Positions 4,455 through 40,901 of a stretch of 64,000 bases of DNA are shown here, piece after piece. The notes under the pieces are model-generated. The model searched no databases. It worked only from the letters and a program-made list of their open reading frames with translations, and was not told where the DNA came from. The stretch's first letter is position 1, and the number at the start of each line of letters is the position of its first letter. Location of the stretch: NCBI RefSeq assembly GCF_026126425.1, contig NZ_JAFMPW010000005.1, forward strand, positions 124,001 to 188,000. Direction: 5' to 3'. Source of the DNA: Muriicola sp. Z0-33 (GTDB taxonomy: Bacteria > Bacteroidota > Bacteroidia > Flavobacteriales > Flavobacteriaceae). A program made the translations under genes and the position numbers.

Positions 4455-4535
4455 TTATAAAATTGTTTATCCTTTAAATTTATTAAATATAAAATTAATT
4501 TTCTACATTTAGCTTTATACTTCATATGAGAGTCG

Positions 4536-4553
4536 TACTATAACGTTGTAGTA
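4536..4553. promoter_or_regulatory. Palindromic operator between divergent sugar operons
   Basis: TACTATAACGTTGTAGTA is an 18-bp near-perfect palindrome (one mismatched pair) with a central CG. It sits in the 136-bp region between the divergent GMC operon and the lipoprotein-isomerase operon. The centre resembles LacI-family operators, which is an inference. No regulator gene is adjacent. The internal TAACGTTG is 5/6 to the Bacteroidota -7 element, so binding could block the rightward promoter. Confidence 0.5.
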
Positions 4554-4590
4554 GTTCTAGAAATAAAAATTCAACTAACTAATCATAAAA

Positions 4591-24899: not shown

Positions 24900-24929
24900 T
24901 TTACATTAAATTCATGTTTACTTAACATT
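24900..24929 (+). promoter_or_regulatory. Candidate Pho box upstream of Na/Pi cotransporter
   Basis: TTACATT at 24901 and TAACATT at 24923 are spaced exactly 22 bp (two 11-bp turns), with a weak TTCATG unit between them. They lie 27 nt before the cotransporter start. The unit matches the TTAACAT repeats found upstream of the porin, PiT and TonB genes. No clear -7 element follows, so this is the weakest of the set. Confidence 0.4.
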
Positions 24930-24955
24930 CAACAAAAAAGCACCAACAAAAAGAC

Positions 24956-26734
24956 ATGCAATACGGACTTACAGACATACTTCAATTAATTGGTGCCCTG
25001 GGGCTTTTTTTATTCGGAATGAAAGTAATGAGCGATGCACTGCTGTTGTTAGCCGGAAATAAAATGCGAAGTATACTGGCTACAATGACTTCGAACAGGT
25101 TTTTGGGAATAACTACCGGCTTTCTAATAACCTCTATCATCCAGTCGTCTTCTGCCACCACCCTGATGGTGGTTAGTTTTTCAAATGCTTCTTTACTCAC
25201 CCTGGCAGAGTCTGTAAGTGTAATCATGGGGGCAAATATCGGGACAACCATTACCGCCTGGCTGATTACAATTCTGGGATTTAAAGTTAGTATGAGTTCA
25301 ATTGCACTCCCTCTGGTGGGTTTCGGTTTTCTTTTTACATTTTCTAAGAAACAGAATAACAAAAATTGGGGAGGGTTTATTATTGGCTTTGCCCTTTTGT
25401 TTATCGGGCTGCAGTTCTTAAAAGAGGCCATGCCTAATATTAATGAGAATCCCGAAATCCTTGAATTTCTTGGGCGCTATACAGATATGGGGTTTCTATC
25501 GGTATTGTTGTTTTTATTTATAGGCACTTTATTAACCGTAATAATACAATCTTCAAGTGCTACAATGGCCCTTACTTTAATTATGACTGCCCAGGGATGG
25601 ATCCCTTTTGAATTGGCTGCGGCCATGGTTCTTGGGGAGAATATTGGTACTACAATTACAGCGAATATTGCAGCTTTTGTCGCAAATTATCAGGCGAAGA
25701 GAACGGCCAGGGCCCATCTTATCTTTAATATTTTGGGTGTTATATGGATGCTTATTCTCTTTTATCCTTTTTTAAGTATGATAAGCTGGCTGGCGGGGCA
25801 GATGGGCTCAGCATCACCTTATGTAGATGCAGCGGCTATTCCTGTTGCCATCTCATTGTTTCATACTGTATTCAACATACTCAATACCTTCTTGTTGGTT
25901 TGGTTCATTACCCCAATTGTAAAAATAGTAGAGAAAATTGTCCCTGAAAAGGCTATTGAAGAGGTGCCTATGGAAGTTCCTAAATTTTTGAATAAGAGGA
26001 TTTTGCGTTATCCTGAAACTGCCATTTCTTCCCTGGAGAAAGAGGCTAAATACCTTTTCGAAAACGCCATTTTTGAAATTGTTGCACATGCCTTAAATTT
26101 TCATAGAGGAGATATTATATCCAGTAAAAAGCCAAAAAAAGTGGTCAAGAAATCCACAGAAGATTTTAAAACGGATGTACGGGCACTTTACCTTACCAAG
26201 GTCAAAACAATTTACGGTAAAATCATTAAGTATGCCACCACATGCCAGAGTGCCTTAAAGCTTTCAGAGGCACAGAACAGACGTGTTATGGAAATTAAAT
26301 TTGCAAGTAGAAATATGGTGGAAATCATAAGGGATGTTGGAGAGTTAAGCAGGAATGTTTCACTTTTCTTAAATGCGGAAAACCCTTATATCCAAAAGGA
26401 ATATAGTAAATTCAGAAAAATGGTAGTAAAGGTACTAAGGGTTATTTATTTGTTCAGAACAGAAGAAGAACCAGATGTATACTATCAGAAACTCCTGGAA
26501 ATAAGACGTCAAGTTAAGGAGAATAGCCGTAAAGGTAATAGGCAAATAGATGAATTGATTAGAAAAAACCTGATCACCACAGATATGGCTTCTTCTTTGT
26601 TTAATGACAACGATAATTTAAATGATCTTGTAAAAAAGCTAATCTCGGTAGCTGAGCTATTGTATGGTAGTAGAGATTCTCTAACAGAAAATGGCGTAAA
26701 AGACAAAGATGCTACTGCATTAAAATCAGCCTAA
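24956..26734 (+). CDS. Na/Pi cotransporter family protein with PhoU-like tail
   Basis: A 592-aa inner-membrane protein. The N-terminal half holds two inverted Na_Pi_cotrans repeats, each with the signature QSSSAT (IIQSSSATTLMVV and IIQSSSATMALTLI) and about eight hydrophobic segments. The C-terminal part, from about residue 355, is a cytoplasmic PhoU-like helical region. The family imports or balances phosphate using the Na+ gradient. It is divergent from the DUF6503 gene and convergent with the PiT genes. Candidate Pho-box repeats precede it, which would fit induction by phosphate starvation. Confidence 0.92.
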   Translation: MQYGLTDILQLIGALGLFLFGMKVMSDALLLLAGNKMRSILATMTSNRFLGITTGFLITSIIQSSSATTLMVVSFSNASLLTLAESVSVIMGANIGTTITAWLITILGFKVSMSSIALPLVGFGFLFTFSKKQNNKNWGGFIIGFALLFIGLQFLKEAMPNINENPEILEFLGRYTDMGFLSVLLFLFIGTLLTVIIQSSSATMALTLIMTAQGWIPFELAAAMVLGENIGTTITANIAAFVANYQAKRTARAHLIFNILGVIWMLILFYPFLSMISWLAGQMGSASPYVDAAAIPVAISLFHTVFNILNTFLLVWFITPIVKIVEKIVPEKAIEEVPMEVPKFLNKRILRYPETAISSLEKEAKYLFENAIFEIVAHALNFHRGDIISSKKPKKVVKKSTEDFKTDVRALYLTKVKTIYGKIIKYATTCQSALKLSEAQNRRVMEIKFASRNMVEIIRDVGELSRNVSLFLNAENPYIQKEYSKFRKMVVKVLRVIYLFRTEEEPDVYYQKLLEIRRQVKENSRKGNRQIDELIRKNLITTDMASSLFNDNDNLNDLVKKLISVAELLYGSRDSLTENGVKDKDATALKSA

Positions 26735-26786
26735 TCATAACCTTAGTGCACCCTATTATGAATTTTATTGGAACACATTAGGTTTT

Positions 26787-29087
26787 CTATTCAACTGTAG
26801 CCCTGGGTACGCGAACATCATGTGCTTCATAATACTTTTCCAATAGATTCATGGTTGCTATTACAAAATCTTTGGTCTCTAAAAGCAGAGAGAAGTACAA
26901 TGTGGTATTTTTAGGACTGGACTCTTCCGTTCTTGTTCTGGCCACCTGCTTCTCTATCCGTTGTGAAACCAATTCGAAAAGTTCCGTTTTACCTTCAAGA
27001 AGGGTTCCTATTTGTTCAAAGGATCGTTCATCAAATGCTTTTTTAGTATTTACTAGCAGCTCATCCAATTTGTAATCTATTTCTTTGAGCTCTTTTATTT
27101 GGTTGTATTTTAATTTTTTATGATTATTATTTACATGCTTGTGAGTAACCTTTCCAATATATTCCAGAGATTGTGCCATATCTTGCAGATAACCCAGGAT
27201 ATTGATATAGAAATTACTGGCACCTACACTGCCTTCGTCCAGGTTCTTGATAAAATAGAATATGCTATCTCTCAGGTCGTCTATTTCAGCAGCTAGTTTA
27301 GCGCCCTGTTTTTTGTTTTTCTGCAGGAGGTCCAGATCTTGTTTGGCGAGACCATTCATGGCATTGGTATAGATCTTATTGCTTCTTTTCAGCACGCTCG
27401 AAATGTTTTTGGCGCTTTCATCAATTACTCCTTGAATAGAGCTGCTTTCGGCCCTGTTAAGACTATCTTCTGCTTTTAACACTCGGGATTTCTTGGTGTA
27501 AGAAATGTAATTACGGGCAAGTAAAATCACAGCTGCGAACAACAGTATGGCAATTGCTGCACCTTTACCAAAACTGATGATGGCCAGGATGGTACCCGAA
27601 GCAATAAATGCAATTATAGCCGTAGCAAACCAACCTCCTATTACATTAAGCACTCCTGCAACCCTGTACACTGCACTTTCACTCCCCCAGGCCCTGTCTG
27701 CCAATGAAGTACCCATAGCCACCATAAAGGTGACGTAGGTAGTAGATAAAGGTAATTTATATGAGGTGGCAATAGAAATAAGTATACCGGCTACCATTAG
27801 ATTGACGGCTGCCCTGACCATATCAAAAGCGGGTAACTCGTGAGTCTTTCCTTTTGGAAGTTGCACTACAAGTTTCTTAAATTGATTATCTACTTTGGCT
27901 TGCCATGAAATTGGGGTTACAATTTTGGTATACTTGCCAATAAGAATAGAAAATCTCACCAAAGTCCGTGATAAAAAGTTAGGTTCAAATCGTTCCTTTG
28001 CCTCTCCTTCACGGGCCAGATTAATTTCGGTATCTGCAACATAGCGCGCCTTTTTAGACAACCATAGGGTAACCACCATTATAATCCCTGCTAAAAATAA
28101 CAATAGGGTTGGTGTTGGTACCTTGGTGGCCAATATTCCCATACTAAATTCTGAAGCTGGCACTCCCGAGACTATCCAGGCTTCATAAGATTGCCAGGCC
28201 GCTATAGGAACACCAATAAAATTTACAAGATCGTTACCTGCAAAGGCAAGAGCCAATGCAAAGGTCCCTACTCCTATAATTAATTTATAAATATTGGTTT
28301 TGGCTGCTACAATTAAAGCATAAGAAAGTAGTGACCAGAACACAAAGCTCACTGCTACAATGAGTAGCACCTGACTTTCCAGGAATTCTGAAATTTTCAT
28401 TCCCCCGATTATATCAAAGGTCTGCCCTGCATAAGGGGTTCCTTTAATTCCTTTCATAAAAATGAAATAGGTGATTGCAGATAAAGCGGCACCACCAAAA
28501 ATGGCCCCTACCCATTTCGCCTTTTTCTCAAAGTTAAAAGACAATAGCAACCTGGAAATCCATTGCACAAAAGCGCCGACAGAAAACGCAACCACTACTG
28601 ATAACAGTATTCCCATAATGATCTGGAAAGCCTTAGCAGTGTTTATATAATTCACCACCTCGGCGAAGCTTCCACCATCGGCGGCGATTTTTATTAAGGA
28701 CATTGCCACTGCCGCACCCAATAGCTCAAAAACTATGGATACCGTTGTGGAGGTAGGCATTCCGAGCGTATTAAAAAAATCGAGCAGTAATATATCTGTA
28801 ATCATTACTGCCATAAAGATGAACATGATTTCATTAAAGTAGAACTCACCCGGGTTAAAAATACCTTTCCTGGCCACCTCCATAAGTCCGCTCGAAAAAA
28901 TGGCACCGCAAGCCATTCCTAAGCTTGCAACTATCATAATCGTTCGGAACGAGATAGCCTTGGAACCAATAGCTGAATTCAAAAAATTAACAGCATCGTT
29001 GCTTACACCAACCACTAAATCCGCCACGGCCAGAGTAGCCAGGGCTATAATCATTAATAAGTAAATATTATCCATTGTTGGGTACAA
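26787..29087 (-). CDS. PiT-family inorganic phosphate transporter (copy B)
   Basis: A 766-aa inner-membrane transporter of the PHO4/PiT family. The two family signatures are GVSNDAVNFLNSA near the N-terminus and AGNDLVNFIGVPIAAW in the middle. The second membrane block ends with STTYVTFMVAMGTSLADRAWG. The C-terminal ~230 aa is a cytoplasmic PhoU-like helical domain. Far longer than classical PitA (about 500 aa) because of this tail. It is 48 bp downstream of a paralogue with the same architecture and no repeats precede it, so it is probably the last gene of a porin-PiT-PiT unit. The start gives MYPTMDN; the internal MDN four codons later aligns with the paralogue's MEN and may be used instead. 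Confidence 0.92.
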   Translation of the reverse strand: MYPTMDNIYLLMIIALATLAVADLVVGVSNDAVNFLNSAIGSKAISFRTIMIVASLGMACGAIFSSGLMEVARKGIFNPGEFYFNEIMFIFMAVMITDILLLDFFNTLGMPTSTTVSIVFELLGAAVAMSLIKIAADGGSFAEVVNYINTAKAFQIIMGILLSVVVAFSVGAFVQWISRLLLSFNFEKKAKWVGAIFGGAALSAITYFIFMKGIKGTPYAGQTFDIIGGMKISEFLESQVLLIVAVSFVFWSLLSYALIVAAKTNIYKLIIGVGTFALALAFAGNDLVNFIGVPIAAWQSYEAWIVSGVPASEFSMGILATKVPTPTLLLFLAGIIMVVTLWLSKKARYVADTEINLAREGEAKERFEPNFLSRTLVRFSILIGKYTKIVTPISWQAKVDNQFKKLVVQLPKGKTHELPAFDMVRAAVNLMVAGILISIATSYKLPLSTTYVTFMVAMGTSLADRAWGSESAVYRVAGVLNVIGGWFATAIIAFIASGTILAIISFGKGAAIAILLFAAVILLARNYISYTKKSRVLKAEDSLNRAESSSIQGVIDESAKNISSVLKRSNKIYTNAMNGLAKQDLDLLQKNKKQGAKLAAEIDDLRDSIFYFIKNLDEGSVGASNFYINILGYLQDMAQSLEYIGKVTHKHVNNNHKKLKYNQIKELKEIDYKLDELLVNTKKAFDERSFEQIGTLLEGKTELFELVSQRIEKQVARTRTEESSPKNTTLYFSLLLETKDFVIATMNLLEKYYEAHDVRVPRATVE

Positions 29088-29135
29088 TCAAATATTAAAC
29101 AGCGCTCAGAACAAGTACTATTATTTCAAGGAGTA

Positions 29136-31409
29136 TTATTCATCAATTTCTTTGTCCTGTATGTTTTGGGAACGATGAAATTCCTCATAATACAGATTCA
29201 AAATATTCATATTGGCCATAATCAGATCCTTGGTTTCTAATAGGATGCTAAAATATAGTGTAGTATTCTTTGGACTGGATTCTTCTGTCCTTGTTCTCTC
29301 TACCTGTTTTTGGATAGACTCCTGAACATTGGTTAAAAGCTCCTGTTTCTCATCTCTAATTCCAGGTATAATTTTATCAAAGGACCTTGAATCAAACACA
29401 CCCCTAATATCGTCGAAAAGTTGTACCAGTTTATGATTTATATTCAATAACTCTTCGGCCTGTTTTTTCTTGAGAGCTTTATGGTTATTGTTAACATGCT
29501 TATGACTTACTTTTGCAATAAGGCTTGAAGATTGTGCCACATCCTGAATACTACCAATAACGTCTATATAGAACTTACTTGCGCCCAAATAGGAATCATC
29601 CATATCCTTAATCAGATAGAAGATGTCGTTCTGTAATTCTTCAATTTCAGACTCTAATTTTGTCACTGTAATCTTGGCTTTTTTAAGCTTATCAAGATCC
29701 TGATTTACCAGACCATTTATGGTGATATCATTTATTTTACTTACCCGTTTCAGCGCTTTAGAGATATTATCCGCGCTTTCTTCTATAACACCCTGAATAG
29801 AATTGCTCTCAGCTCTGTTTAAACTATCTTCTGCTTTTACTTCCCGGGATTTTTTCTTGTGTTGAATGTAATTTCTTGCCAGAAGTAGTACTGCCAATAA
29901 TAGCAATACCCCAATCATAGCACCTCCGCCTAAATGGATTAGATAGGCAACGGTACCGGCTGCAATAAATGCCATAATTGCGGTAAAAAACCAGCCGCCA
30001 ATTACGTTTAATACTCCAGCCACACGATAAACAGCACTTTCACTACCCCAGGCCCTGTCTGCTAATGAGGTACCCATTGCCACCATAAAAGTCACATAAG
30101 TGGTAGACAACGGCAGCTTCATGGAAGTGGCAATGGAAATCAATACACTGGCAACCATAAGGTTTACCGCGGCACGTACCATATCAAAGGCTGGCAATTC
30201 ATGGGTCTTCCCTTTGGGTAATTCAATAACCGGTTTTTTAAATTGGCGTTCAATGCGCTCCAAAATGGGATTGGGAATGACTGTGGCAGTATATTTGGAA
30301 GCAAGCATAGTAAAACGCACCAGGTTTCTGGACAAGAAATTAGGATTAAAACGCTCTTTAGTTTCTTCCTGTCTGGATAAGTCTATAGATGTTTTTACTA
30401 CTTTTTTTGCTTTACTGGAGAACCAGAGGGTCAATACCATAACCAGTCCTGCAATCAATAAAAATAAAGTAGGAGTAGGTACTTTTTTACCCAGGGCATC
30501 CATTGCAAATTCTGTTGCAGGGACACCAGAAACTATCCAGGCTTCGTAAGATTGCCATGCCGCAATAGGCACTCCAATAAAGTTAACAAGGTCGTTACCG
30601 GCAAAAGCCAGGGCCAAAGCAAAGGTACCTACAGCAATGATCAGTTTATAAATATTCTTTTTAAAGACCTGTACAAAGATATAAGAAAGAAAAATCCAGA
30701 TTAGCAAACCAATTGCTACTATCTCTAATGTTTTTCCTTCAATCAGTGGCTGAATTTCAGCGTAATAATCGGTTCCTTTTAATCCCTTTATAAAAATGAA
30801 GTAGGTAATTGCAGTTAAAGCTATGCCGCCAAATACGGCACCCACCCATTTGGCTTTCTTATCAAAATTAAACGACAAAAATACCCGGGAAATGTATTGC
30901 ACAAGTGCACCCACAGAAAATGCGACCACAACAGACAACAGGATCCCCAAAATGATCTCTGTAGCTTTTTTGGTGTTAATGTAAGTGCCAAGTTCGCCCA
31001 GTGAGCTACCATCTGCACCTATTTTAATAAGTGCAACTGCCACTGCTGCCCCTAATAGTTCAAAAACGATAGAGACCGTTGTTGAGGTAGGCATCCCCAG
31101 TGTATTAAAGAAGTCTAAAAGTAAAATGTCAGTGATCATTACCGCCATAAAAATGATCATGATTTCACTGAAGTAAAATTCTCCGGGAACAAAAATTCCT
31201 TTTCGTGCTACTTCCATCAGGCCACTCGAAAAAACTGCACCTACAGCTATTCCCAGGCTTGCTACGATCATAATCGTCCTAAAAGAAATCGCCTTGGATC
31301 CAAGAGCTGAATTCAAAAAATTGACAGCATCGTTGCTAACTCCTACAACAAGATCTGCAACGGCCAGAGCAGCCAGTGCAATCAGCATTAAAAAGTAAAT
31401 ATTTTCCAT
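29136..31409 (-). CDS. PiT-family inorganic phosphate transporter (copy A)
   Basis: A 757-aa paralogue of the next gene with the same layout: PHO4 membrane domain with GVSNDAVNFLNSA and AGNDLVNFIGVPIAAW, then a PhoU-like tail ending in a charged C-terminus. The membrane cores are nearly alike, while the tails and the central loop differ much more, so the tandem duplication is old and the tails may have diverged in regulation. It follows the porin gene by 75 bp, a gap that carries its own candidate Pho box. Confidence 0.92.
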   Translation of the reverse strand: MENIYFLMLIALAALAVADLVVGVSNDAVNFLNSALGSKAISFRTIMIVASLGIAVGAVFSSGLMEVARKGIFVPGEFYFSEIMIIFMAVMITDILLLDFFNTLGMPTSTTVSIVFELLGAAVAVALIKIGADGSSLGELGTYINTKKATEIILGILLSVVVAFSVGALVQYISRVFLSFNFDKKAKWVGAVFGGIALTAITYFIFIKGLKGTDYYAEIQPLIEGKTLEIVAIGLLIWIFLSYIFVQVFKKNIYKLIIAVGTFALALAFAGNDLVNFIGVPIAAWQSYEAWIVSGVPATEFAMDALGKKVPTPTLFLLIAGLVMVLTLWFSSKAKKVVKTSIDLSRQEETKERFNPNFLSRNLVRFTMLASKYTATVIPNPILERIERQFKKPVIELPKGKTHELPAFDMVRAAVNLMVASVLISIATSMKLPLSTTYVTFMVAMGTSLADRAWGSESAVYRVAGVLNVIGGWFFTAIMAFIAAGTVAYLIHLGGGAMIGVLLLLAVLLLARNYIQHKKKSREVKAEDSLNRAESNSIQGVIEESADNISKALKRVSKINDITINGLVNQDLDKLKKAKITVTKLESEIEELQNDIFYLIKDMDDSYLGASKFYIDVIGSIQDVAQSSSLIAKVSHKHVNNNHKALKKKQAEELLNINHKLVQLFDDIRGVFDSRSFDKIIPGIRDEKQELLTNVQESIQKQVERTRTEESSPKNTTLYFSILLETKDLIMANMNILNLYYEEFHRSQNIQDKEIDE

Positions 31410-31445
31410 AATTTTTAGTAGTTGGCTATTGGCAAATATCTATTC

Positions 31446-31487
31446 TAAACTTACTTCAGATGTTACCAAAATGTTATTTCTGTTTTA
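31446..31487 (-). promoter_or_regulatory. Candidate Pho box and -7 element before PiT copy A
   Basis: On the minus strand TAACAT units at 31471-31476 and 31460-31465 are exactly 11 bp apart, with a weaker in-phase unit (TAAAAC) at 31482-31487 overlapping the porin stop. TAAGTTTA (31446-31453), 5/6 to TAnnTTTG, follows after 6 nt. This would give PiT copy A its own phosphate-responsive promoter inside the porin-PiT unit. Confidence 0.5.
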
Positions 31488-32690
31488 GAAATGAATGTCG
31501 AATTGTAATCTGTACATTAATTCGTCCCCTCCATTATCAACAGAAAGATAGCTTAAATCTGTCTGAACTTTTAATTTATGTCCTACAATATATTTAGATA
31601 ACCCTAATGTGTATTGTGTTTCCGGGTTCCTTCCTGTAATGTTTTCATCTAATTTGATATTGGTATATCTCCCGGATATTTCCCAGTCTTTCCGAAGAAG
31701 ATAGCCGGTCTGCACATTAAGACCATTACCTACCTGGACTACGTCTCCGGTTGCAGTTCCATCAGAGTTTTTTGCAATGGGATCATCGGCGTCCCGATCT
31801 GCATATTCAACCATTAGAGAAAATCCCTGATATTTAAACATTGCATCCAAAAATAGGGTATTAATTGTAGTTTCATAAAACCCGATATCATTGGTCATGT
31901 AAGAACCCTGATTACTTCTGTTTTTTACAGCATTGTGGTTAGAATCATATGTGGCCGCAAGCATTAACTTTGGCGTTTCCTCTCGCTTTAGATCACTACC
32001 GCTATAATCTCCTTTACTTTTAAAACTTCCAAATGGGAGCAATTCTAATCTTGCAGTGTATTGATGCCCTCCTAAATTTCCTATTGTAATATTTCTTCCT
32101 TCCCCCTGTGAGATAGCTAACTTTTCTCTTACAAGGAACTTATCTGAAAAGTTGATATGGTGCCTTAGTTGAACGCCCATATCCCGGTCTATATTAAATC
32201 TACTATTTACCAGCGACCGGTCTACCTGCTGCAAATTTCCCGAGGATATAACCCGTTCTATATTTCCCGGCAGCTTGGTCTGACCTACCCAAAGTACAAA
32301 GTTCTCATAGAAATTATACATGATCACGGCATCGAGTATATATTTGGGTCCGTTACCGGTAAATGCAGAAGCGCCTCCAATATCCCTGTTAGATAACCCC
32401 AGCTCCATTTTGTATTTGAGTTTAGGTGTAAAGGCAAAACCATCAAATTTGAGACGTGCCCTGCGCACCAGGAAATTTTGTTCAGGATTGACAAGACCTC
32501 CATCCGCCCCTTCTTCCCAGTTGGCGATGCCTAAAAATTGCATTCTTGTTGCAATTTTCATGGTCCAGGTACTGTCTTTGCCCACCAAATTAAAGAGGCC
32601 CTTGCCAAATTCTGGGGCATTGGGTTCCTGAGATAAAGCAGTAAGACAAATAGTTAGGGTTAATACTAAAGAAAGTAGTTTAGTTTTCAT
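31485..32690 (-). CDS. Phosphate-selective porin O/P family
   Basis: A 401-aa outer-membrane beta-barrel with a signal peptide (TICLTALSQ). It has the OprO/OprP pattern of alternating aromatic strands: NFLVRRARLKFDGFAFTPKLKYKMELGLSN, LWVGQTKLPGNIER, and a C-terminal strand ending in Phe (YRLQFDIHF), as needed for barrel insertion. The family admits phosphate or polyphosphate. It is the first gene of a leftward unit with two PiT transporters, giving an outer-to-inner membrane phosphate route. A triple 11-bp-phased repeat and a -7-like element precede it. Confidence 0.9.
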   Translation of the reverse strand: MKTKLLSLVLTLTICLTALSQEPNAPEFGKGLFNLVGKDSTWTMKIATRMQFLGIANWEEGADGGLVNPEQNFLVRRARLKFDGFAFTPKLKYKMELGLSNRDIGGASAFTGNGPKYILDAVIMYNFYENFVLWVGQTKLPGNIERVISSGNLQQVDRSLVNSRFNIDRDMGVQLRHHINFSDKFLVREKLAISQGEGRNITIGNLGGHQYTARLELLPFGSFKSKGDYSGSDLKREETPKLMLAATYDSNHNAVKNRSNQGSYMTNDIGFYETTINTLFLDAMFKYQGFSLMVEYADRDADDPIAKNSDGTATGDVVQVGNGLNVQTGYLLRKDWEISGRYTNIKLDENITGRNPETQYTLGLSKYIVGHKLKVQTDLSYLSVDNGGDELMYRLQFDIHF

Positions 32691-32714
32691 AGAGGTTATT
32701 AGTTTTTGTCATTG

Positions 32715-32758
32715 CAAATAACCAATATCAATGTTAACTAAATGTTGTCTGAATGTTA
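32715..32758 (-). promoter_or_regulatory. Candidate Pho box and -7 element before the porin gene
   Basis: On the plus strand ATGTTA (32731), ATGTTG (32742) and ATGTTA (32753) are spaced exactly 11 bp; in the gene's direction they read TAACAT, CAACAT, TAACAT. After an 8-nt spacer comes GTTATTTG (32715-32722), which keeps the TTTG of the Bacteroidota -7 element. The porin start is 25 nt further on. The layout resembles PhoB/PhoP direct-repeat boxes placed just upstream of the -10 region. Confidence 0.6.
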
Positions 32759-32811
32759 TATCTTGATGAGGAAGTAGTTGCCAATTCTGTCAAGGAATAA
32801 TTTGAATGAAA

Positions 32812-32843
32812 GCCAAAAAAAAACTGCCTTGGCCAAAGGCAGT
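32812..32843 (-). terminator. Intrinsic terminator with no assigned gene
   Basis: ACTGCCTT and AAGGCAGT form a perfect 8-bp stem around a 5-nt loop (32823-32843). In the leftward direction it is followed by about nine U residues. No leftward gene lies upstream of it; the next gene to the right points the other way. It therefore ends an unannotated leftward transcript, or acts as an attenuator before the porin gene. Confidence 0.75.
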
Positions 32844-32930
32844 CATTAGAATTCATGATAATATAGTTGACAAAAACTAATACATTATATGAAATACCTA
32901 ATTGTTGTGTTTAAACACTTTGCAAAGTTG
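32812..32930 (-). ncRNA. Possible small RNA ending at the orphan terminator
   Basis: A leftward transcript is implied by the terminator at 32812-32843. Upstream of it are two overlapping perfect 12-bp palindromes, GTGTTTAAACAC (32907-32918) and ACTTTGCAAAGT (32917-32928), which would form stems in RNA. CAACTTTG on the minus strand is one base from the -7 consensus and would give a transcript near 100 nt. A start nearer the repeat array at 33038 would give about 200 nt. No open frame of note is seen. The 5' end is a guess. Confidence 0.3.
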
Positions 32931-33037
32931 TGTTATCTACGTGAGTTTAGTGTAATGTGAACATTAAGTAATTATTAAAAATTTCTTTTTTGTTTAACGT
33001 AGAGCTACATACTAATTAATCTCGGCAAACGTTCTGA

Positions 33038-33092
33038 ATGTAAATTTAATGTTAAGCAATAGTTGATTTTAAGTTAAAAAACTGTAGTTTTA
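33038..33092. promoter_or_regulatory. Four-unit 11-bp-phased repeat array before the MORN gene
   Basis: Units ATGTAA (33038), ATGTTA (33049), TAGTTG (33060) and AAGTTA (33071) are each exactly 11 bp apart; on the minus strand the two nearest the porin read TTACAT and TAACAT. Reading rightward, an 8-nt spacer separates the last unit from TAGTTTTA (33085-33092), 5/6 to TAnnTTTG and 22 nt before the MORN gene. Reading leftward, AACGTTTG lies just past the array. The array could serve either direction. Confidence 0.5.
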
Positions 33093-33113
33093 TACTACAA
33101 AATTGCAATAAAT

Positions 33114-33482
33114 ATGCGCATCATGAATAAATTGGTTTTAGTATTGGCGGTTTGTCTTATGACCTCAATTACCTACGGACAAAAGGAAAAAGAAGTTAAA
33201 CTAAATAAGGAAACCCAACTTGTAGAAGCTACTTATTATCATGATAATGGAGAGGTTAGCCAGGAAGGAACATTTAATCTTGCCGGCAAACTCCACGGAG
33301 AATGGGTAAGTTATAATGAGGAGGGAGTGAAAATTTCCATAGGGTCTTATGCAGACGGTATTAAAACAGGAAAGTGGTTTTTTTGGAATGATGGAATGAT
33401 GAAGCAAGTAGAATATAATGACAATGTAATAGCAAGTGTTATAAGTAAAGAAATCGATTCTGGGATCACTAATAAACATTAA
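33114..33482 (+). CDS. Secreted MORN-repeat (YwqK-like) protein
   Basis: A 122-aa secreted protein with a signal peptide ending TYGQ; the start may be the second ATG at 33123 (MNKLVLVLAV). After a Lys/Glu linker it has MORN-variant repeats as in YwqK-type proteins: YYHDNGEVSQEGTFNLAGKLHGEWVSYNEEG, then IGSYADGIKTGKWFFWNDG. The repeats form a small beta-sheet scaffold, possibly for membrane or partner binding. The position inside the phosphate island behind a Pho-like repeat array suggests phosphate-starvation expression; molecular role unknown. Confidence 0.75.
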   Translation: MRIMNKLVLVLAVCLMTSITYGQKEKEVKLNKETQLVEATYYHDNGEVSQEGTFNLAGKLHGEWVSYNEEGVKISIGSYADGIKTGKWFFWNDGMMKQVEYNDNVIASVISKEIDSGITNKH

Positions 33483-33498
33483 AGATATTTATATAAAT

Positions 33499-33537
33499 AA
33501 AAAATCCGCTGCCTGACTCCAGACAGCGGATTTTTTT
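33499..33537. terminator. Bidirectional terminator
   Basis: AAAAAATCCGCTG pairs with CAGCGGATTTTTT (12-13 bp, with a further CTG/CAG pairing inside the loop) between the convergent MORN gene and the small CarboxypepD-like gene. It has U-tracts in both directions. Confidence 0.85.
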
Positions 33538-33559
33538 ATGCCTATTTCTCTTACAAGTA

Positions 33560-33961
33560 TTATTCTTTGTCTTCCTTTTCTTCTTTAGCAAACAACTCTT
33601 GACTCGAATTATTTTTTTCACTTAGCAAATCAGCTATGTCTATATCCAATGTTTTGGCAGCCAAATCCGTGACCACATCCGATACCGTATTTTCTTTCAC
33701 CTCAACCGGGATTTCCTTGCTGTCATAGCCAGCGAAACTAACAGTTAAAATATAATTTCCTGGAGTTACACCTGTAATTTCAAAATTGCCATGAAGATTA
33801 GATTGTACTACCGTACTACTACCTTTTATATGAATACTAGCCATCATAAGTGGTTCGTTGTTTACTTCACAATCTGCAATATGGCCCTTTATCGTGCCTA
33901 AATCTTGTGAGGACAACACCGCGGAGAACAACAGTGTGCTTAGCAGCAGAAAATATTTCAT
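33560..33961 (-). CDS. Secreted single-domain CarboxypepD_reg-like protein
   Basis: A 133-aa protein with a signal peptide (LLFSAVLSSQ) and one carboxypeptidase-regulatory-like beta-sandwich (GTIKGHIADCEVNNEPLMMASIHIKGSS, GNFEITGVTPGNYILTVSFAGYDSKEIPVEV). This is the domain normally fused to the N-terminus of TonB receptors. Here it stands alone, followed by an acidic Lys/Glu tail. It might assist the TonB receptor encoded 1.4 kb upstream on the same strand, which is speculative. A five-unit 11-bp-phased repeat array and a good -7 element precede it. Confidence 0.78.
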   Translation of the reverse strand: MKYFLLLSTLLFSAVLSSQDLGTIKGHIADCEVNNEPLMMASIHIKGSSTVVQSNLHGNFEITGVTPGNYILTVSFAGYDSKEIPVEVKENTVSDVVTDLAAKTLDIDIADLLSEKNNSSQELFAKEEKEDKE

Positions 33962-33980
33962 ATACGATTGCTTTTGAGCA

Positions 33981-34046
33981 CAAAGAAATGGCAGCTATGT
34001 AAATTTACAGTTATGGGCAGATTAATTATTGGTAAGTTTTATGTTA
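33981..34046 (-). promoter_or_regulatory. Five-unit candidate Pho box and -7 element
   Basis: On the plus strand ATGTAA (33997), CAGTTA (34008), AGATTA (34019), TGGTAA (34030) and ATGTTA (34041) are all exactly 11 bp apart; the middle units are weak. In the gene's direction the last unit TTACAT is followed by an 8-nt spacer and TTTCTTTG (33981-33988), 5/6 to TAnnTTTG, 19 nt before the start codon at 33961. Same geometry as the porin promoter. Confidence 0.55.
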
Positions 34047-34100
34047 ACATTAAATCCACACAAAGTATTCATAGGCACCTGGCCCTTAAATATTCAATTC

Positions 34101-34134
34101 AAAAAAAAGAAAACCCCGCGAAAGCGAGGTTTTT
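34101..34134 (-). terminator. Intrinsic terminator of the beta-helix lipoprotein gene
   Basis: AAAACCCCGC and GCGAGGTTTTT form a stem with one mismatch around a GAAA tetraloop (34110-34134). In the leftward direction it runs into an oligo-U tract (A-tract 34101-34108). It lies 30 bp after the lipoprotein stop at 34164. Confidence 0.8.
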
Positions 34135-34163
34135 ACTTTATGAGGTAAATACTATTTTAAAGA

Positions 34164-35354
34164 TTAATTAATTCCTATCGTCCAACCTGCACCCCAGGTA
34201 GAAATGTCTGTACCGGTTCCATTACCATCACCAGAAATAAAATCGGCCTCTGTAAATGTATACTCAGTGTCATTTTTTAGTTTGGTAGTAACATTGTTAA
34301 AAGTCACATCCATGATGCTGAGGTTTCCGTCTAATACGCCCTGCCCGGTAGGATTATCTCCGGTATCTCCGTCAAGATCAAAGCCTTCATCAAAATCGGT
34401 AAGTACAATATTGGTGAATATGCCCTGGGTTCCGGCTCGCAGGCGGATGGCTTCACTTGCATCATTAGCACCTATAACAGTAACATTTGTGATATCCGGC
34501 GCAGAATAATATGCCCCCTCATTACTAAAATCAGTATTGTACCCATCACATTCAAAAGCTTTGTCATGAGAAGCTCCATGTTGTACATATACGTCTGTAA
34601 GCGTACCTACAAATCCCTCTGTCCAGTCAATAGAATCGTCCTCGGCGTTTACCACAACCAAATGGCTCGCATTTACTGTTCCTCCAAAAAACTCGAATCC
34701 GTCATCAGAGCCTTCATAAACCTGAACATAATCTATCGTAGTTCCGGATCCTACTCCGTATACAGACAAACCATTTAACTCCGCATTACCATCAATAGCA
34801 CCTCCAGCGTATTCAATTCTAACATACTGCAGGGTTCCTGAATTATCTGTGGGGGTATTTCCACCATAAGATAATCCACCTATCTCAGAAGTTGCAGTAT
34901 CTTCAGAACCATCGGCAGTAGAATTTATAGGTGCTCTGCCGCATATAACAAGTCCACCCCAATCCCCGGAAGAACGATTACCTGCGTTAGAAGTCAGTAC
35001 TATTGGGTTACTAGCTGTCCCTACAGCGTTAATTTGGGCTCCCTGTTGAATAGCAATATAAGCATTAACCCCAACGGGTTCTGCCTTTATGGTCATCCCT
35101 GCCGGGATGGTCAGGGTAGTACCGGCAGCCATGAGTACGGGTCCTGTAATTATATATTCAAATTCAGCATCCAAGGTGAGATTTTCGGTAAAAACCCCAC
35201 TTAAATTAACTGTGGTATCTCCAGGTTCTTCATTGTCGCCCGAAATATTATTGGTGACACTGTTATCATTTATAACAATATCCGGGGTATCGTCCTTCTC
35301 GCATCCGAATATAAGTGAGGCGGCTATACCTAAAAATAAAATCTTGTTTTTCAT
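34164..35354 (-). CDS. Surface beta-helix lipoprotein, partner of TonB receptor
   Basis: A 396-aa lipoprotein (lipobox IFGC, Cys18). After an Asp/Asn-rich linker it shows a parallel beta-helix-like body: AGTTLTIPAGMTIKAEP, NPIVLTSNAGNRSSGDWGGLVICGRAPIN, LQYVRIEYAGGA, NGLSVYGVGSGTTIDYVQVYEGSDDGFEFFGG. The sequence is very acidic (DGDTGD and similar), suggesting cation binding. It starts 20 bp after the TonB receptor stop, so the pair is one operon, like a SusD substitute. With Pho-like repeats upstream of the receptor, capture of a phosphorus compound is a reasonable but unproven idea. Confidence 0.8.
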   Translation of the reverse strand: MKNKILFLGIAASLIFGCEKDDTPDIVINDNSVTNNISGDNEEPGDTTVNLSGVFTENLTLDAEFEYIITGPVLMAAGTTLTIPAGMTIKAEPVGVNAYIAIQQGAQINAVGTASNPIVLTSNAGNRSSGDWGGLVICGRAPINSTADGSEDTATSEIGGLSYGGNTPTDNSGTLQYVRIEYAGGAIDGNAELNGLSVYGVGSGTTIDYVQVYEGSDDGFEFFGGTVNASHLVVVNAEDDSIDWTEGFVGTLTDVYVQHGASHDKAFECDGYNTDFSNEGAYYSAPDITNVTVIGANDASEAIRLRAGTQGIFTNIVLTDFDEGFDLDGDTGDNPTGQGVLDGNLSIMDVTFNNVTTKLKNDTEYTFTEADFISGDGNGTGTDISTWGAGWTIGIN

Positions 35355-35374
35355 TGTTTTAAGATTAAATAGAA

Positions 35375-38203
35375 TTAAAATTTATATTTGAGGGTTAGCC
35401 CAATGTTAACCCCAAGGTTATACTCTCGTATTGTAATATCACCTACACCTGTGTTTTCTCTAATGAATGAAATATCAGGATTCAGGATATTTTCGACAGA
35501 CATATTGGCTTCAAAATGTTCGCCTATTTCATTTCTCCAAATAAAACCCAGTGAGGGGACACCTTTTTCTATAATGTTGCCCAGACTACCGGCGCCCAGT
35601 GAAAATATTCTATCCGAAAAATAGGAGAACACTGCAGTGGCCTTTGGTTTATACTTACCGAACTCCGGGCTATAGTTAATATCAGCGTTAATGATAAAAG
35701 GTGAAGCTCCTTCCAACTCATCCGAATCCCTGTCAAAAGAGGTCCCAAAAGTATTGTCAGAACCTGCGGGAATGTCTTTTAAATCTTGTTTAGTATTGGT
35801 ATATGCAGCATTAAGGCCAAAGGATAAAATAGGATCGTCATCGGAATTGGATAACACATTTTTACGCAATTCAAGTTCTACACCATAAATGTCTGCCTGC
35901 TCCCCGGTTCTGAAATAGCGTTGGGTACCTGTTGCATCTGCTGCTACCACCCTGTTTACAGGATTTTTTATTGTTTTTACAAAGGCGGCTAATGAAATGA
36001 TTTCGCCTTGTTCCAAAAACCATTCGTACTTCAGGTCATAATTATATACATCTGAATATGTGGGTCCTGTGCCATTTAAGCCACCTAAAAGGTCCGGATT
36101 ACCACCAATTCTTTGTGTTACTGATTCATAGACAAAAGGTGCAACTTCTTTAAATTCGGGAAAAGATGCAGTTTTGCTAAATCCAAATCTCAAATTGGAA
36201 TCCTCATTTAATGCATAACGTACATTTAAACTTGGTAGATAAATATTCTCATAAACATTACGAGCACCCGGGTCGTCCGGTCTAATGTTGATAACATCAT
36301 AGGCCACTTTCTGCGAAAACGACTCAACTCTGAAACCAGGAACCATAGACCATTTTTCTCCCATATTTAATTCTGCAGAGGCAAACACCCCATGAATATC
36401 CAGATTTCCTGTATAGCTGTTTTCTGGAAGTCCCGGCCGATTTTTATTGCCAATTTCATTACTGATAGGGTTGAGAACAATTAAATCATATAATCCAGTT
36501 TCCTTTGGAATATTAATGTTAGACACATTAAAAATGGAATTAAAATCACTTACGTCCGTTACAGGGGTATTATTCCTGTCTAATATTTCATACCCATACC
36601 TGATACTACTAAATCTGCGTTCTTTTGTTCTGCCATTATATCCAAAGTTTAATTTTACATTGTCAGACAGTTCATAGCCTAATTTTATGTAGCTATTTAA
36701 TTCATCATCATTTATACTCTGAAAGAATCGCTGATTATCAAAAGGAATATTTGTATAAAAAACGGGGTTAGTGGCGTTGTCTCCATCCAATGCAAATTGA
36801 TAATTTTCCAGGGTAATTCGTTTTCTGTCTGGTTCGTCTGAGAAGACATTATTATAACCTATACCCCAGTCCAATTTAATTTTATCATCAAAAGTATGTA
36901 AGCCTGTTAACTGATTAACAAAAATCATATCCTGATTAAACTGCACATTCATAACATAGAAGCCCTCATCGGTATTAATAATTGCGTCTCTGTTTGTTCC
37001 TAAACCATTAATCCCATAGTATCCAACGGCATCGGTGGAATTATTAATAAATAAGGAACTGAATTTAATTGAATTGTTGGTGTCTATTCTATATCCGATA
37101 TTGGATAATGCAGTGGTTGTTGTCCCGTATGCATATTCTCTTACATTCGGAAAGTCTGTTTTAAGTACATTGGTAAAATCCCGGGCAGGACCTTCCTGGA
37201 TAGCATAGCTGTTTTCAAAAGACGCTGCTCCAAAAAGGCTAATACGAGATTGCTTCCCAACGGTAAAAGAATAACCTCCTTCAATAGCTCCGGAAAAGTT
37301 TATGGGTTCCCATGCAGCCTGTGGGTCTAAACCATGGGCCAATATTATGGCAAAAGGATTATTGCTATACCTATTGTAGAAACCAAAATCGCTTGGTCCT
37401 TCACTTCGCACAAAATTTTCTCCAGCTGCGTTCGAATTCAGACCACTTCCCAATTGAACTTCAAAGTAACCATTACCCGTGTACTCCTTCGAATCAATAT
37501 TGACGTTTCCTGCCGCAAAATCTCCATAAAATGAAGAGGAATACGCCTTACTTACAGATACATTTTCTATGATACCCGATCCGAATATATCGAGATCGAT
37601 ATTCTTTTTATTTACGTCATTTGAGGGTAAGGAGAGGCCATTCATTGTTGTATTTTGATATCTGTCGCCAAGACCTCTTACATAAACATTGCTTGAGCCT
37701 TGTTGCTTAGATATCCCGGAAATCTGCGAAACTGCTGCGGCCGCATTATCAATACCTTTTAGTTTTAGCGCTTCTGCGCTAATACCCTCTTGAATAACAA
37801 GAGCATTTTTTTGCTCCAGTAATAATGCTATTTCTGAATCCTTAGATGTTGATATGGTAAGCACCACCTCGTCTAGTGAAACACTTCCGGCACCCAGTGC
37901 CAAATTAACCTCTGTTACTTTGCCGCTCTCTACAACTACATCAGGAATTTCAAGGGTTTCATAGCCCAAAAAGCTAAACACCAAAATATACTTGCCAGGA
38001 ATAACTTCTGCTATTTCATATAAACCATCAAAGTCTGAGGTGGTACCTTTAGTAGTGTTCTTAATGAGAACATTTGCAAATGCCAGAGGTGCGTTATTTG
38101 CCTCTTTATCTGAAAGTAAACCTACGATACTTCCATTTTCCTGTGCATGACCTATTGCATTAAATAGTAATAGAGTAAGTAGTATACTAAAAACTTGTTT
38201 CAT
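35375..38203 (-). CDS. TonB-dependent receptor (phosphate island)
   Basis: A 942-aa outer-membrane receptor. It has a signal peptide ending GHAQ, a CarboxypepD_reg-like domain (about 25-105), a plug domain (GISAEALKLKGIDNAAAAVSQISGIS, VYVRGLGDRYQNTTMNGLSLPS) and a 22-strand-type barrel ending in a terminal Phe (LGVNIGLTLKYKF). It is not a SusC: no SusD follows, and the plug resembles receptors of the CirA/outer-membrane-receptor branch. It is co-transcribed with the acidic beta-helix lipoprotein. A pair of 11-bp-phased repeats 85 nt upstream suggests Pho control. Confidence 0.92.
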   Translation of the reverse strand: MKQVFSILLTLLLFNAIGHAQENGSIVGLLSDKEANNAPLAFANVLIKNTTKGTTSDFDGLYEIAEVIPGKYILVFSFLGYETLEIPDVVVESGKVTEVNLALGAGSVSLDEVVLTISTSKDSEIALLLEQKNALVIQEGISAEALKLKGIDNAAAAVSQISGISKQQGSSNVYVRGLGDRYQNTTMNGLSLPSNDVNKKNIDLDIFGSGIIENVSVSKAYSSSFYGDFAAGNVNIDSKEYTGNGYFEVQLGSGLNSNAAGENFVRSEGPSDFGFYNRYSNNPFAIILAHGLDPQAAWEPINFSGAIEGGYSFTVGKQSRISLFGAASFENSYAIQEGPARDFTNVLKTDFPNVREYAYGTTTTALSNIGYRIDTNNSIKFSSLFINNSTDAVGYYGINGLGTNRDAIINTDEGFYVMNVQFNQDMIFVNQLTGLHTFDDKIKLDWGIGYNNVFSDEPDRKRITLENYQFALDGDNATNPVFYTNIPFDNQRFFQSINDDELNSYIKLGYELSDNVKLNFGYNGRTKERRFSSIRYGYEILDRNNTPVTDVSDFNSIFNVSNINIPKETGLYDLIVLNPISNEIGNKNRPGLPENSYTGNLDIHGVFASAELNMGEKWSMVPGFRVESFSQKVAYDVINIRPDDPGARNVYENIYLPSLNVRYALNEDSNLRFGFSKTASFPEFKEVAPFVYESVTQRIGGNPDLLGGLNGTGPTYSDVYNYDLKYEWFLEQGEIISLAAFVKTIKNPVNRVVAADATGTQRYFRTGEQADIYGVELELRKNVLSNSDDDPILSFGLNAAYTNTKQDLKDIPAGSDNTFGTSFDRDSDELEGASPFIINADINYSPEFGKYKPKATAVFSYFSDRIFSLGAGSLGNIIEKGVPSLGFIWRNEIGEHFEANMSVENILNPDISFIRENTGVGDITIREYNLGVNIGLTLKYKF

Positions 38204-38271
38204 TGAATAGAATTACGTTTTCAGCCGCAAAGAACGTCAGGCATTGTAAATGTCAGGTTATCTAGATATTA

Positions 38272-38304
38272 TTGAAGTATTGTATTAGTGTTAGTTAATT
38301 GTTA
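38272..38304 (-). promoter_or_regulatory. Candidate Pho box before the TonB receptor
   Basis: On the plus strand GTGTTA (38288) and TTGTTA (38299) are exactly 11 bp apart, reading TAACAC and TAACAA toward the receptor gene. At the 8-nt spacing used by the porin box lies TACTTCAA (38272-38279), which keeps only the TA of the -7 element. Weaker than the porin and CarboxypepD-like boxes. Confidence 0.4.
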
Positions 38305-38391
38305 GCAGGTTAATTAAATGTAAAGGAGAAGGAATGCGCTTTAGATGCATGCCTGGAGTAATATGGATAAAGAACTGGCTATTTCAAATAT

Positions 38392-39791: not shown

Positions 39792-40901
39792 TCAAAAACT
39801 GTAGGCCATTCCAATGCCCAATGTTTGTTTAAATTGAATACGGGGTTCTCCGGGATCTATTACAGTTCCGTCAGCGGCTTTTTGTTCGTCAAACAGAATA
39901 TCATCGTCATAGATGACATGGGTGCCGACAGTTGCACTGATATACTCGTTAACGGTAAACTTAAAATTAAGTTCCCAATCGACATCCACGTTGCCAAACG
40001 ATCTCAAATAATCAGAATAAAGACTTATGCGATGCGTCATAAGAACATTTTTGGTCAAATCTGTCTCCCATTTGTTTGTGATGAGAAAGCCCAGTTCGGC
40101 AAATACATTTTCACCTTCCTGTATTACATTTCCATCGTCATCCAACAGCGCTTTCTTGACTCCGAAAGCCCCTTTGTTGGCTAAGGTCTGATCCAGTACA
40201 TAGGTAGATTTATGTGTAAACGGGGAGATATAAAGATTAAATTTCCCGGCTTCGGTTATATAAGAGGCACCCCCACCAATAAATAAATAACCCGGTGACA
40301 TAAATCTTGATATTGGCGTATCGCGGTTGGGGTACTTAAACCCGTCGGCAAATTGTGTGTTGAAATTAAGTTTAGCCGAGTAATACCAATTGGTAATGGT
40401 ATCCTGCCTGTAGCCAAAAGTAGAACTAAGGCGGATAGCATCATCAGTTTTTCGCCATTTACGACCCTCCTGGGCATTCCATCCAAACCTCAATACAAGG
40501 TCGTTATTCCATTGAACATATCTGAATTTGTAGTTTCTGACAAAACGCATACTGCCCAGCGCTGACACCGAATTATCCCCACCGGCGTTCCAGTTGACAA
40601 AAGCCACTTCACTTAAACTCAGGCCCAATTCATTTTTGTTATCCCAGAAAGAAGGGACCCTAAAGCGCTTAATAGGCTTCAATAAAGGTTTGGTGCTATT
40701 AAATGAAATGACCGGATGATAAAGATTAACCCCTCTGGGAACAATTTTTATTTTATCCTGAACAGCCCTGATAACAATAGTGTCTATTGCAATACTATCC
40801 AAGTCAACACTGGGCGGAATTGAATCTTGGGCAGTCAAAAAATTGCAAATAGTAAAAACGAGACTAAAAAGAATGCATTTCCCGAGAGAGCAGTTAGGCA
40901 T
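39792..40901 (-). CDS. DUF3078 outer-membrane-type protein
   Basis: A 369-aa protein with a signal-like N-terminus (ILFSLVFTICNFLTAQ) and the Bacteroidota DUF3078 body: LSLSEVAFVNWNAGGDNSVSALGSMRFVRNYKF, DDAIRLSSTFGYRQ, WYYSAKLNFNTQFADGFKYPN and FMSPGYLFIGGGASY. Alternating aromatic strands and a C-terminal Phe (LGIGMAYSF) indicate a beta-barrel in the outer membrane. Function unknown. The start overlaps the upstream dxs gene by 8 bp, so both are co-transcribed. Confidence 0.85.
   Translation of the reverse strand: MPNCSLGKCILFSLVFTICNFLTAQDSIPPSVDLDSIAIDTIVIRAVQDKIKIVPRGVNLYHPVISFNSTKPLLKPIKRFRVPSFWDNKNELGLSLSEVAFVNWNAGGDNSVSALGSMRFVRNYKFRYVQWNNDLVLRFGWNAQEGRKWRKTDDAIRLSSTFGYRQDTITNWYYSAKLNFNTQFADGFKYPNRDTPISRFMSPGYLFIGGGASYITEAGKFNLYISPFTHKSTYVLDQTLANKGAFGVKKALLDDDGNVIQEGENVFAELGFLITNKWETDLTKNVLMTHRISLYSDYLRSFGNVDVDWELNFKFTVNEYISATVGTHVIYDDDILFDEQKAADGTVIDPGEPRIQFKQTLGIGMAYSF

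Follow-up and report, generated by a model that had tools for sequence, protein, structure and literature searches.

The window analysed here is a 64,000-nucleotide stretch of Muriicola sp. Z0-33 (Flavobacteriaceae; contig NZ_JAFMPW010000005.1, positions 124,001 to 188,000), in which an island of phosphate-related genes is accompanied by phased TTAACAT repeats. Positions are those of the window, and features lie on the minus strand unless marked otherwise. The island includes a Porin_O_P gene encoding a putative phosphate porin (31485..32690; Pfam E 2e-10), a PiT-type phosphate transporter gene (29136..31409; PHO4 E 6.5e-29) and, divergent from the porin across a 423-bp intergenic region, a gene for a MORN_2-like protein (33114..33482, plus strand; E 8.6e-7, just under the Pfam cut-off). 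Between the TTAACAT array that precedes the MORN gene and the porin, on the porin strand, lies a predicted small RNA (sRNA) gene of ~110 nt (32813..32921). Judged from its sequence, a copy of the porin's promoter box appears to drive this non-coding gene, and the porin message is the proposed target of its product.

Phased arrays are coupled to promoters

Direct reading and rescoring placed minus-strand TTAACAT units at 31460/31471, 32731/32742/32753, 33038–33071, 33997–34041 and 38288/38299. An earlier note on this DNA had described such direct repeats in 11-bp phase at six promoters; its minus-strand coordinates agree with ours, and its plus-strand positions, 24901/24923, are off by one from the array at 24900/24911/24922, whose middle unit is TTCATGT. 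Scoring three units with at least 17/21 matches over the 4307 bases taken as intergenic, we found four arrays at period 11 against a mean of 0.05 in shuffled sequence, a count reached in none of 200 shuffles, and no arrays at periods 9, 10, 12 or 13 at the same threshold. Across the whole 64 kb, four three-unit arrays stood against a mean of 0.12 (60 shuffles). The 11-bp phasing is real, specific to that period, beyond shuffles and, as described below, conserved.

We defined a strict site as three TTAACAT-like units, 8 nt and then a −7 element ending in TTTG, with a threshold of at least 13/21 matches. At this fixed spacing the window held six sites, five of which are the promoters of the porin, the PiT gene, a CarboxypepD_reg-like (CarbopepD) gene, a TonB-dependent receptor gene and the predicted sRNA. 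Other spacings gave 0–3 sites at the same threshold, with the exception of a shift of 11, which gave six, as the period demands. The porin box (32715..32759) scores 18/21, its three units followed after 8 nt by GTTATTTG. The PiT box (31433..31477) carries its unit pair one 11-bp turn further upstream, with a degenerate third unit and the −7 element GATATTTG. The sRNA box (32923..32967), which had been overlooked, scores 13/21 at the fixed spacing, with a fourth unit just upstream and CAACTTTG as its −7 element. The proposal that a −7-like element begins exactly 8 nt after the last unit of three arrays holds at 32731 and 33997 and fails at 33071, where the best octamer, TAGTTTTA, lies 7 nt after the unit AAGTTAA.

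We compared these boxes across 102 porin loci, comprising the best 80 of 575 candidates and 22 with at least 51% identity, our own genome among the latter; some loci come from the same or near-identical species (for example L041 and L105). The region upstream of the porin orthologs is strongly conserved and reads as three units, 8 nt and GTTnTTTG. When the best array was chosen without any spacing rule, 69 of the 94 porin promoters had TTTG starting 12 nt on; in 15 it started 1 nt on (one unit out of register) and in 5 it started 4 nt on. On the PiT side, TTTG followed the unit pair after 23 nt, one 11-bp step further, in 47 of 92 regions. The array holds a fixed position relative to the promoter, as a Pho regulon box should. 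For the porin and the PiT gene the box is found again at tens of orthologous loci, and for the TonB receptor (L302, L307) and CarbopepD (L300, L301) in two relatives each.

A promoter model, R2, was built from 27 porin promoters including that of the window, which it matches at E 2.1e-9. Of 39 genomes searched, 11 have a porin promoter at E<1e-5; these 11 hold 24 other matches at E<=0.05, of which 11 lie less than 10 kb from the porin by hand count. The Muriicola genome gave 17 matches up to E 10; the porin promoter alone was strong, and the rest were weak or partial, some of them near or inside genes.

A predicted small RNA gene upstream of the porin

The sRNA gene was delimited by a covariance model match (32813–32940), with the 5′ end inferred from the −7 element and the 3′ end marked by a terminator at 32815..32842, a stem-loop CTGCC...GGCAG followed by a T run. 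It has its own promoter by motif, overlaps no gene and ends in an intrinsic terminator. Its fold is more stable than shuffled sequence (z −3.0; 1 of 200 shuffles as good), and the segment complementary to the porin leader lies partly in a hairpin loop. Among the predicted base pairs of the RNA, 9 of 12 are changed on both sides in relatives, mostly in the terminator stem, and the sRNA box is conserved upstream of the RNA.

The covariance model was trained on 43 sequences, which match by construction; the window's own is among them, so that its E values of 1.7e-17 (scan of the Muriicola genome) and 1.1e-18 (scan of the porin loci) are to be read accordingly. The model matches at E<1e-6 in 79 of 102 porin loci (60/80 of the best candidates and 19/22 of the second set, window included) and in 36 of the 59 loci outside the training set. 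A scan of 296 genomes of the order under strict filters gave 9 at E<1e-8, our own included; matches at E>1e-4 were mostly chance-like where inspected, and one at 1.1e-4 (L186) appeared real. Searching the region against Rfam returned no match at the gathering score or at E<=1.

The same stretch could be read as an upstream leader of the porin operon, started at the 32923 box and mostly terminated, or else read through and folding its anti-leader onto the leader in cis. Such attenuation would fit a segment on the same strand, directly upstream of the porin and with a terminator in between. Against it, a separate box and −7 element, among the best conserved parts of the locus, stand right before the porin leader, and the sRNA persists in a genome (G014) without an adjacent porin. 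We regard attenuation as quite improbable and continue with a separate sRNA gene.

Two relatives show the RNA in other settings. In G014 (L305, ~4458–4590) it has survived between MORN and PiT genes that no longer have a porin gene between them, and the leader is missing from a distant porin encoded elsewhere in this genome. In G003 (L306, ~2280–2388) a weaker relative (E 0.0008) begins immediately after an upstream gene, shows no box of its own and precedes a divergent Porin_O_P gene and a PstS-family gene; this form is perhaps a version of the sRNA derived from a 3′ untranslated region.

The predicted RNA covaries with the porin leader

A segment of the sRNA (32867..32882) is a 15-nt perfect complement of the porin leader segment ATGACAAAAACTAATA (32697..32712): sRNA TATTAGTTTTTGTCG complements CGACAAAAACTAATA, with which the porin message is predicted to begin. 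Among 47 leaders in the window, that of the porin forms the strongest duplex with the sRNA, at −29.2 kcal/mol. Across relatives, 67 of 74 leaders that come with the RNA retain the core GACAAAAAC, against 5 of 13 where the RNA was not found next to the porin (Fisher p 9e-5). In this count 15 of the 102 loci yielded no leader, the readings for L046 and L145 started at the promoter of the RNA itself and were scored as core not kept, and L123, with a weak RNA match (E 0.0013), was placed in the group without RNA. Three low-identity porin relatives (L062–L064) showed no such leader by eye.

Covariation was scored in 74 distinct leader–RNA pairs, namely 78 loci minus two without a leader anchor and two duplicates. 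In the alignment, the two anchors dictate pairs 0–6 and, on the RNA side, pair 7, so these positions are no evidence of pairing; covariation was significant at pairs 8, 10 and 11 (0 of 2000 permutations each). Over pairs 7–10, 20 of 28 non-Watson–Crick cells are G-U. Cognate duplexes averaged −25.9 kcal/mol against −22.3 when partners were swapped (76 loci; 0 of 20,000 permutations), with the cognate RNA best or tied in just 7 of 76 loci. Among 38 disjoint nearest-neighbour pairs the cognate combination was better in 24, worse in 9 and tied in 5 (Wilcoxon p 0.0006). Individual cases show paired changes: L125 and L126, whose porins are 93% alike, differ by a clean double change in leader and RNA, and in G313 (L182), from another family, leader and RNA both carry an altered pairing core, here ahead of a divergent Porin_O_P gene. 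The complementarity to the leader is conserved and covarying, as expected of a base-pairing sRNA.

Leader and anti-leader could instead be inverted repeats acting as DNA, either an invertible promoter or a protein-binding site, with no RNA involved. An inverted repeat does flank the porin promoter, and the sRNA model therefore also rings weakly on the other strand. Yet all model matches at E<1e-6 lie on the porin strand (79 of 79 porin loci), so no inverted copy is seen, and an invertible promoter was judged unlikely. One-sided changes are mostly G-U compatible, which would be meaningless in DNA, and both the terminator and the sRNA box are conserved. A role in DNA alone is highly improbable in our view, and we retain pairing between two RNAs.

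What the pairing does to the porin is a separate matter. Pairing may increase the yield of porin, either because it protects the 5′ end of the message from decay or because it opens the message for translation, in a coherent feed-forward arrangement. The sRNA and the porin share box type and direction and are probably co-produced, and the pairing spans the predicted 5′ end of the porin message. Set against this, the leader is very short and the pairing nears the start codon, where it should hinder initiation. A positive effect on the porin is doubtful; because the leader is only ~20–25 nt, pairing should block initiation, and the sRNA probably represses porin translation.

We also looked for further targets. 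A search of the Muriicola genome for sRNA complements with up to two mismatches gave 8 matches, one being the sRNA gene itself; the porin leader alone among them looks target-like, and the other candidates were dropped. Across 60 relatives, GTCGACAAAAACT occurs at 19 places in 16 genomes, its reversed control in 21 genomes, and as a bare pattern it was set aside as not enriched over that control. Of the places found, 14 are at the porin island or its relatives (sRNA gene) and one is the leader of a Na/Pi cotransporter gene in G008; three of 7 inspected loci are inside genes. This Na/Pi leader (L069/L291) holds GTAGTCGACAAAAACT, a long complement to the same genome's sRNA, and is a possible second target. 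Retention of the sRNA in G014 together with the complementary Na/Pi leader in G008 hints at further targets.

A candidate regulator and the link to phosphate

The Muriicola genome encodes five Trans_reg_C proteins, of which four resemble response regulators. P0001 (L032), with a histidine kinase gene next to it, is the sole one of the four scanned regulators for which PhoB is the best NCBIfam model. Weak reversed TTAACAT-like units stand 60–95 nt before this PhoB-like gene (L032, ~945–980), where they may reflect autoregulation. Elsewhere, L034 encodes a Trans_reg_C protein in which, by eye, no receiver domain is visible and a putative transmembrane segment precedes the part that binds DNA.

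PstS had no match in the Muriicola genome. In four other genomes a PstS gene follows a boxed porin, which puts the box upstream of high-affinity phosphate (pst) genes: pstS stands directly behind the porin in G007, G031 and G032, and a PstS-family gene stands behind a divergent Porin_O_P gene in G003. In G032, pstS itself carries units too, and TTTG follows them at the same spacing. Array scoring covered 20 of 35 rows of PstS/PBP loci. At the eight top PstS loci the highest-scoring forward arrays reach 15, 12, 13, 17, 17, 15, 14 and 16 of 21, the 12 and 13 belonging to two loci directly behind a porin. Forward arrays score 11–14 at a further 12 PBP loci of lower score, of which two have E ~1e-20. 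The best reverse-strand arrays of the two groups overlap (12–17 and 12–15).

The repeats had been proposed as the Pho box of this lineage. As a flavobacterial Pho box they are well supported by these sequence comparisons at the porin, PiT, CarbopepD and TonB promoters, where the boxes are conserved; the Na/Pi promoter is a doubtful member, and the regulator is a candidate. They were partly anticipated in vitro. For PhoP of Riemerella anatipestifer, a response regulator from the same order (Flavobacteriales), DNA affinity purification sequencing in vitro gave TTTAACA as the most conserved nucleotides, with a distinct peak upstream of its own operon and a resemblance to the ArcA motif; the available part of that report ties PhoP to virulence and redox and gives no 11-bp array, −7 spacing or sRNA (PMC9603813). 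New here are the coupling of the box to the −7 element and the island regulon.

That resemblance raises the prospect that the boxes serve another OmpR-family regulator with an ArcA-like site, such as that of L031, and that the island answers another signal as well or instead. The R. anatipestifer motif resembles that of E. coli ArcA (PMC9603813, as far as the source was accessible), and the L031 regulator scores slightly higher than P0001 on the PhoB model (216.2 against 213.9 bits). The boxed genes themselves speak for phosphate, being a phosphate porin, a PiT transporter and, in relatives, pst-linked porins; PhoB is the best model for P0001 alone of the four regulators, and weak units precede its own gene. 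We consider an ArcA-like regulator unlikely and keep a PhoB-like protein as the candidate.

Other genes and boxes of the island

The CarbopepD box (33981..34025) scores 15/21 with the −7 element TTTCTTTG and has more units upstream, to 34047; its R2 match is full-length yet weak (E 0.7). It precedes the gene for a 133-aa CarboxypepD_reg-like protein (33560..33961; Pfam E 7.6e-17). The TonB receptor box (38228..38272; 15/21; −7 element GTTCTTTG) lies nearer to its gene (35375..38203; Pfam E 9.2e-24) than the units at 38288/38299, the only ones described there previously; these (38288–38305) are in phase with the proximal units, 22 and 33 bp from the first. The island further holds a second PHO4/PiT gene (26787; Pfam) and a gene for a 396-aa protein without a Pfam assignment (34164).

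Before the divergent MORN gene stands a four-unit array (33038..33077) whose units are reversed relative to the gene. This opposite orientation had been listed as a caveat; it is there, and it fits a reversed-unit promoter of the MORN gene. Of the 41 MORN-type genes identified at porin loci, 39 have a reversed array scoring at least 15/21 in front of them. The spacing is loose: such arrays, seen in the window and in L300–L304, are in helical register with the gene's −7 element in part of the genomes, 16 of 39 having it at 12 or 23 nt. A regulator bound backwards here might repress rather than activate.

The Na/Pi cotransporter gene (Na_Pi_cotrans, 24956, plus strand) is preceded by a weak three-unit array (24900..24928, plus strand) with no −7 element at the fixed spacing, and by eye just one of the three closest orthologs has an array. 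Its place in the regulon, assumed earlier, is doubtful. Distant Na/Pi genes in L074 and L082, from other families, do have arrays, 8 nt and then TATTTTTG and TAAATTTG by eye.

Discussion

We propose that a response regulator of the PhoB/PhoP type, with the PhoB-like protein of L032 as the candidate, uses the arrays as its operator boxes. Tandem subunits would occupy the 11-bp-phased TTAACAT half-sites, the last of them 8 nt upstream of the Bacteroidota −7 element, and would help RNA polymerase initiate under phosphate scarcity, activating the porin, PiT, CarbopepD and TonB genes and the sRNA. Within the region between porin and MORN gene, boxes would drive two same-direction transcripts, the porin message and, just upstream, the ~110-nt sRNA. 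The loop of the sRNA would pair with ~15 nt at the very start of that message and block the ribosome. The circuit would be an incoherent feed-forward brake that caps or sharpens porin synthesis. We put the probability of this reading, in which a Pho-activated sRNA targets the 5′ end of the porin mRNA by base pairing and acts as such a brake, at about 0.57.

Several observations weigh against it. It is counter-intuitive that the porin and its own repressor should be produced at the same time. In the window, the runner-up duplex, with an unrelated leader (40894–42660), reaches −25.6 kcal/mol. The permutations treat related genomes as independent, which the nearest-neighbour contrasts remove only in part, and 9 of the 33 informative contrasts go the opposite way. 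P0001 falls below the equivalog cut-off of the PhoB model TIGR02154 (213.9 against 296.2 bits). Under the strict filters of the order-wide scan, which leave absence with little weight, 257 of 296 genomes had no sRNA match. R2 found few convincing promoters outside the island. In Flavobacterium johnsoniae, OprP, a Porin_O_P-family protein encoded in the PhoBR operon and a possible ortholog, was not induced by phosphate depletion, and the words 'Pho box', 'motif' and 'small RNA' are absent from the main text, as available, of that study (PMC8115612). Finally, the bare pair of TTAACAT units with up to two mismatches had 75 matches in the genome, 8 of them inside the window, against 120 for the reversed control. 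The bare pair was dropped as a genome-wide marker, and a triple pattern with up to three mismatches proved too strict (2 genome matches). Because it is not enriched genome-wide, the pair alone is not diagnostic; the promoter-coupled array is.

In the PhoB box of E. coli and the PhoP box of Bacillus subtilis, 11-bp-phased half-sites of 6–7 nt replace the −35 element. The window differs in its half-site, TTAACAT, and in the constant 8 nt between its array and a Bacteroidota −7 element. Porin-repressing sRNAs of enterobacteria, with MicF/OmpF as an example, likewise pair at the start of the porin message, and both partners are under the control of a response regulator; here, in a different phylum, the sRNA gene stands in tandem directly upstream of its target under a twin box. 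To our knowledge, few sRNA–target pairs are known in Bacteroidota.

Rfp18 of Flavobacterium psychrophilum is a conserved flavobacterial sRNA that is thought to act by base pairing and is linked to metalloproteases; 'porin' and 'PhoB' are absent from the main text in its available part (PMC9723704). Sinorhizobium meliloti has sRNAs that rise on phosphate starvation, a likeness that extends to the search for PhoB sites upstream; in the portion of the study available, four induced candidates had no evident PhoB site (PMC2573895). Within the open-licence literature searched, the listings showed no description of this RNA and no flavobacterial case that combines PhoB, an sRNA and a porin. On balance, we favour the view that this is a new Pho-activated sRNA family, widespread in Flavobacteriaceae and reaching a second family of the order, in an incoherent feed-forward arrangement with the porin from a twin box.

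Phosphate control in Bacteroidota is poorly mapped at the DNA level. An explicit promoter grammar of 11-bp units, 8 nt and a −7 element offers a means to predict phosphate regulons across a large group of marine and soil bacteria. Covariation between sRNA and mRNA makes its own test of the proposed pairing, and control of porin levels during phosphate limitation becomes directly testable.

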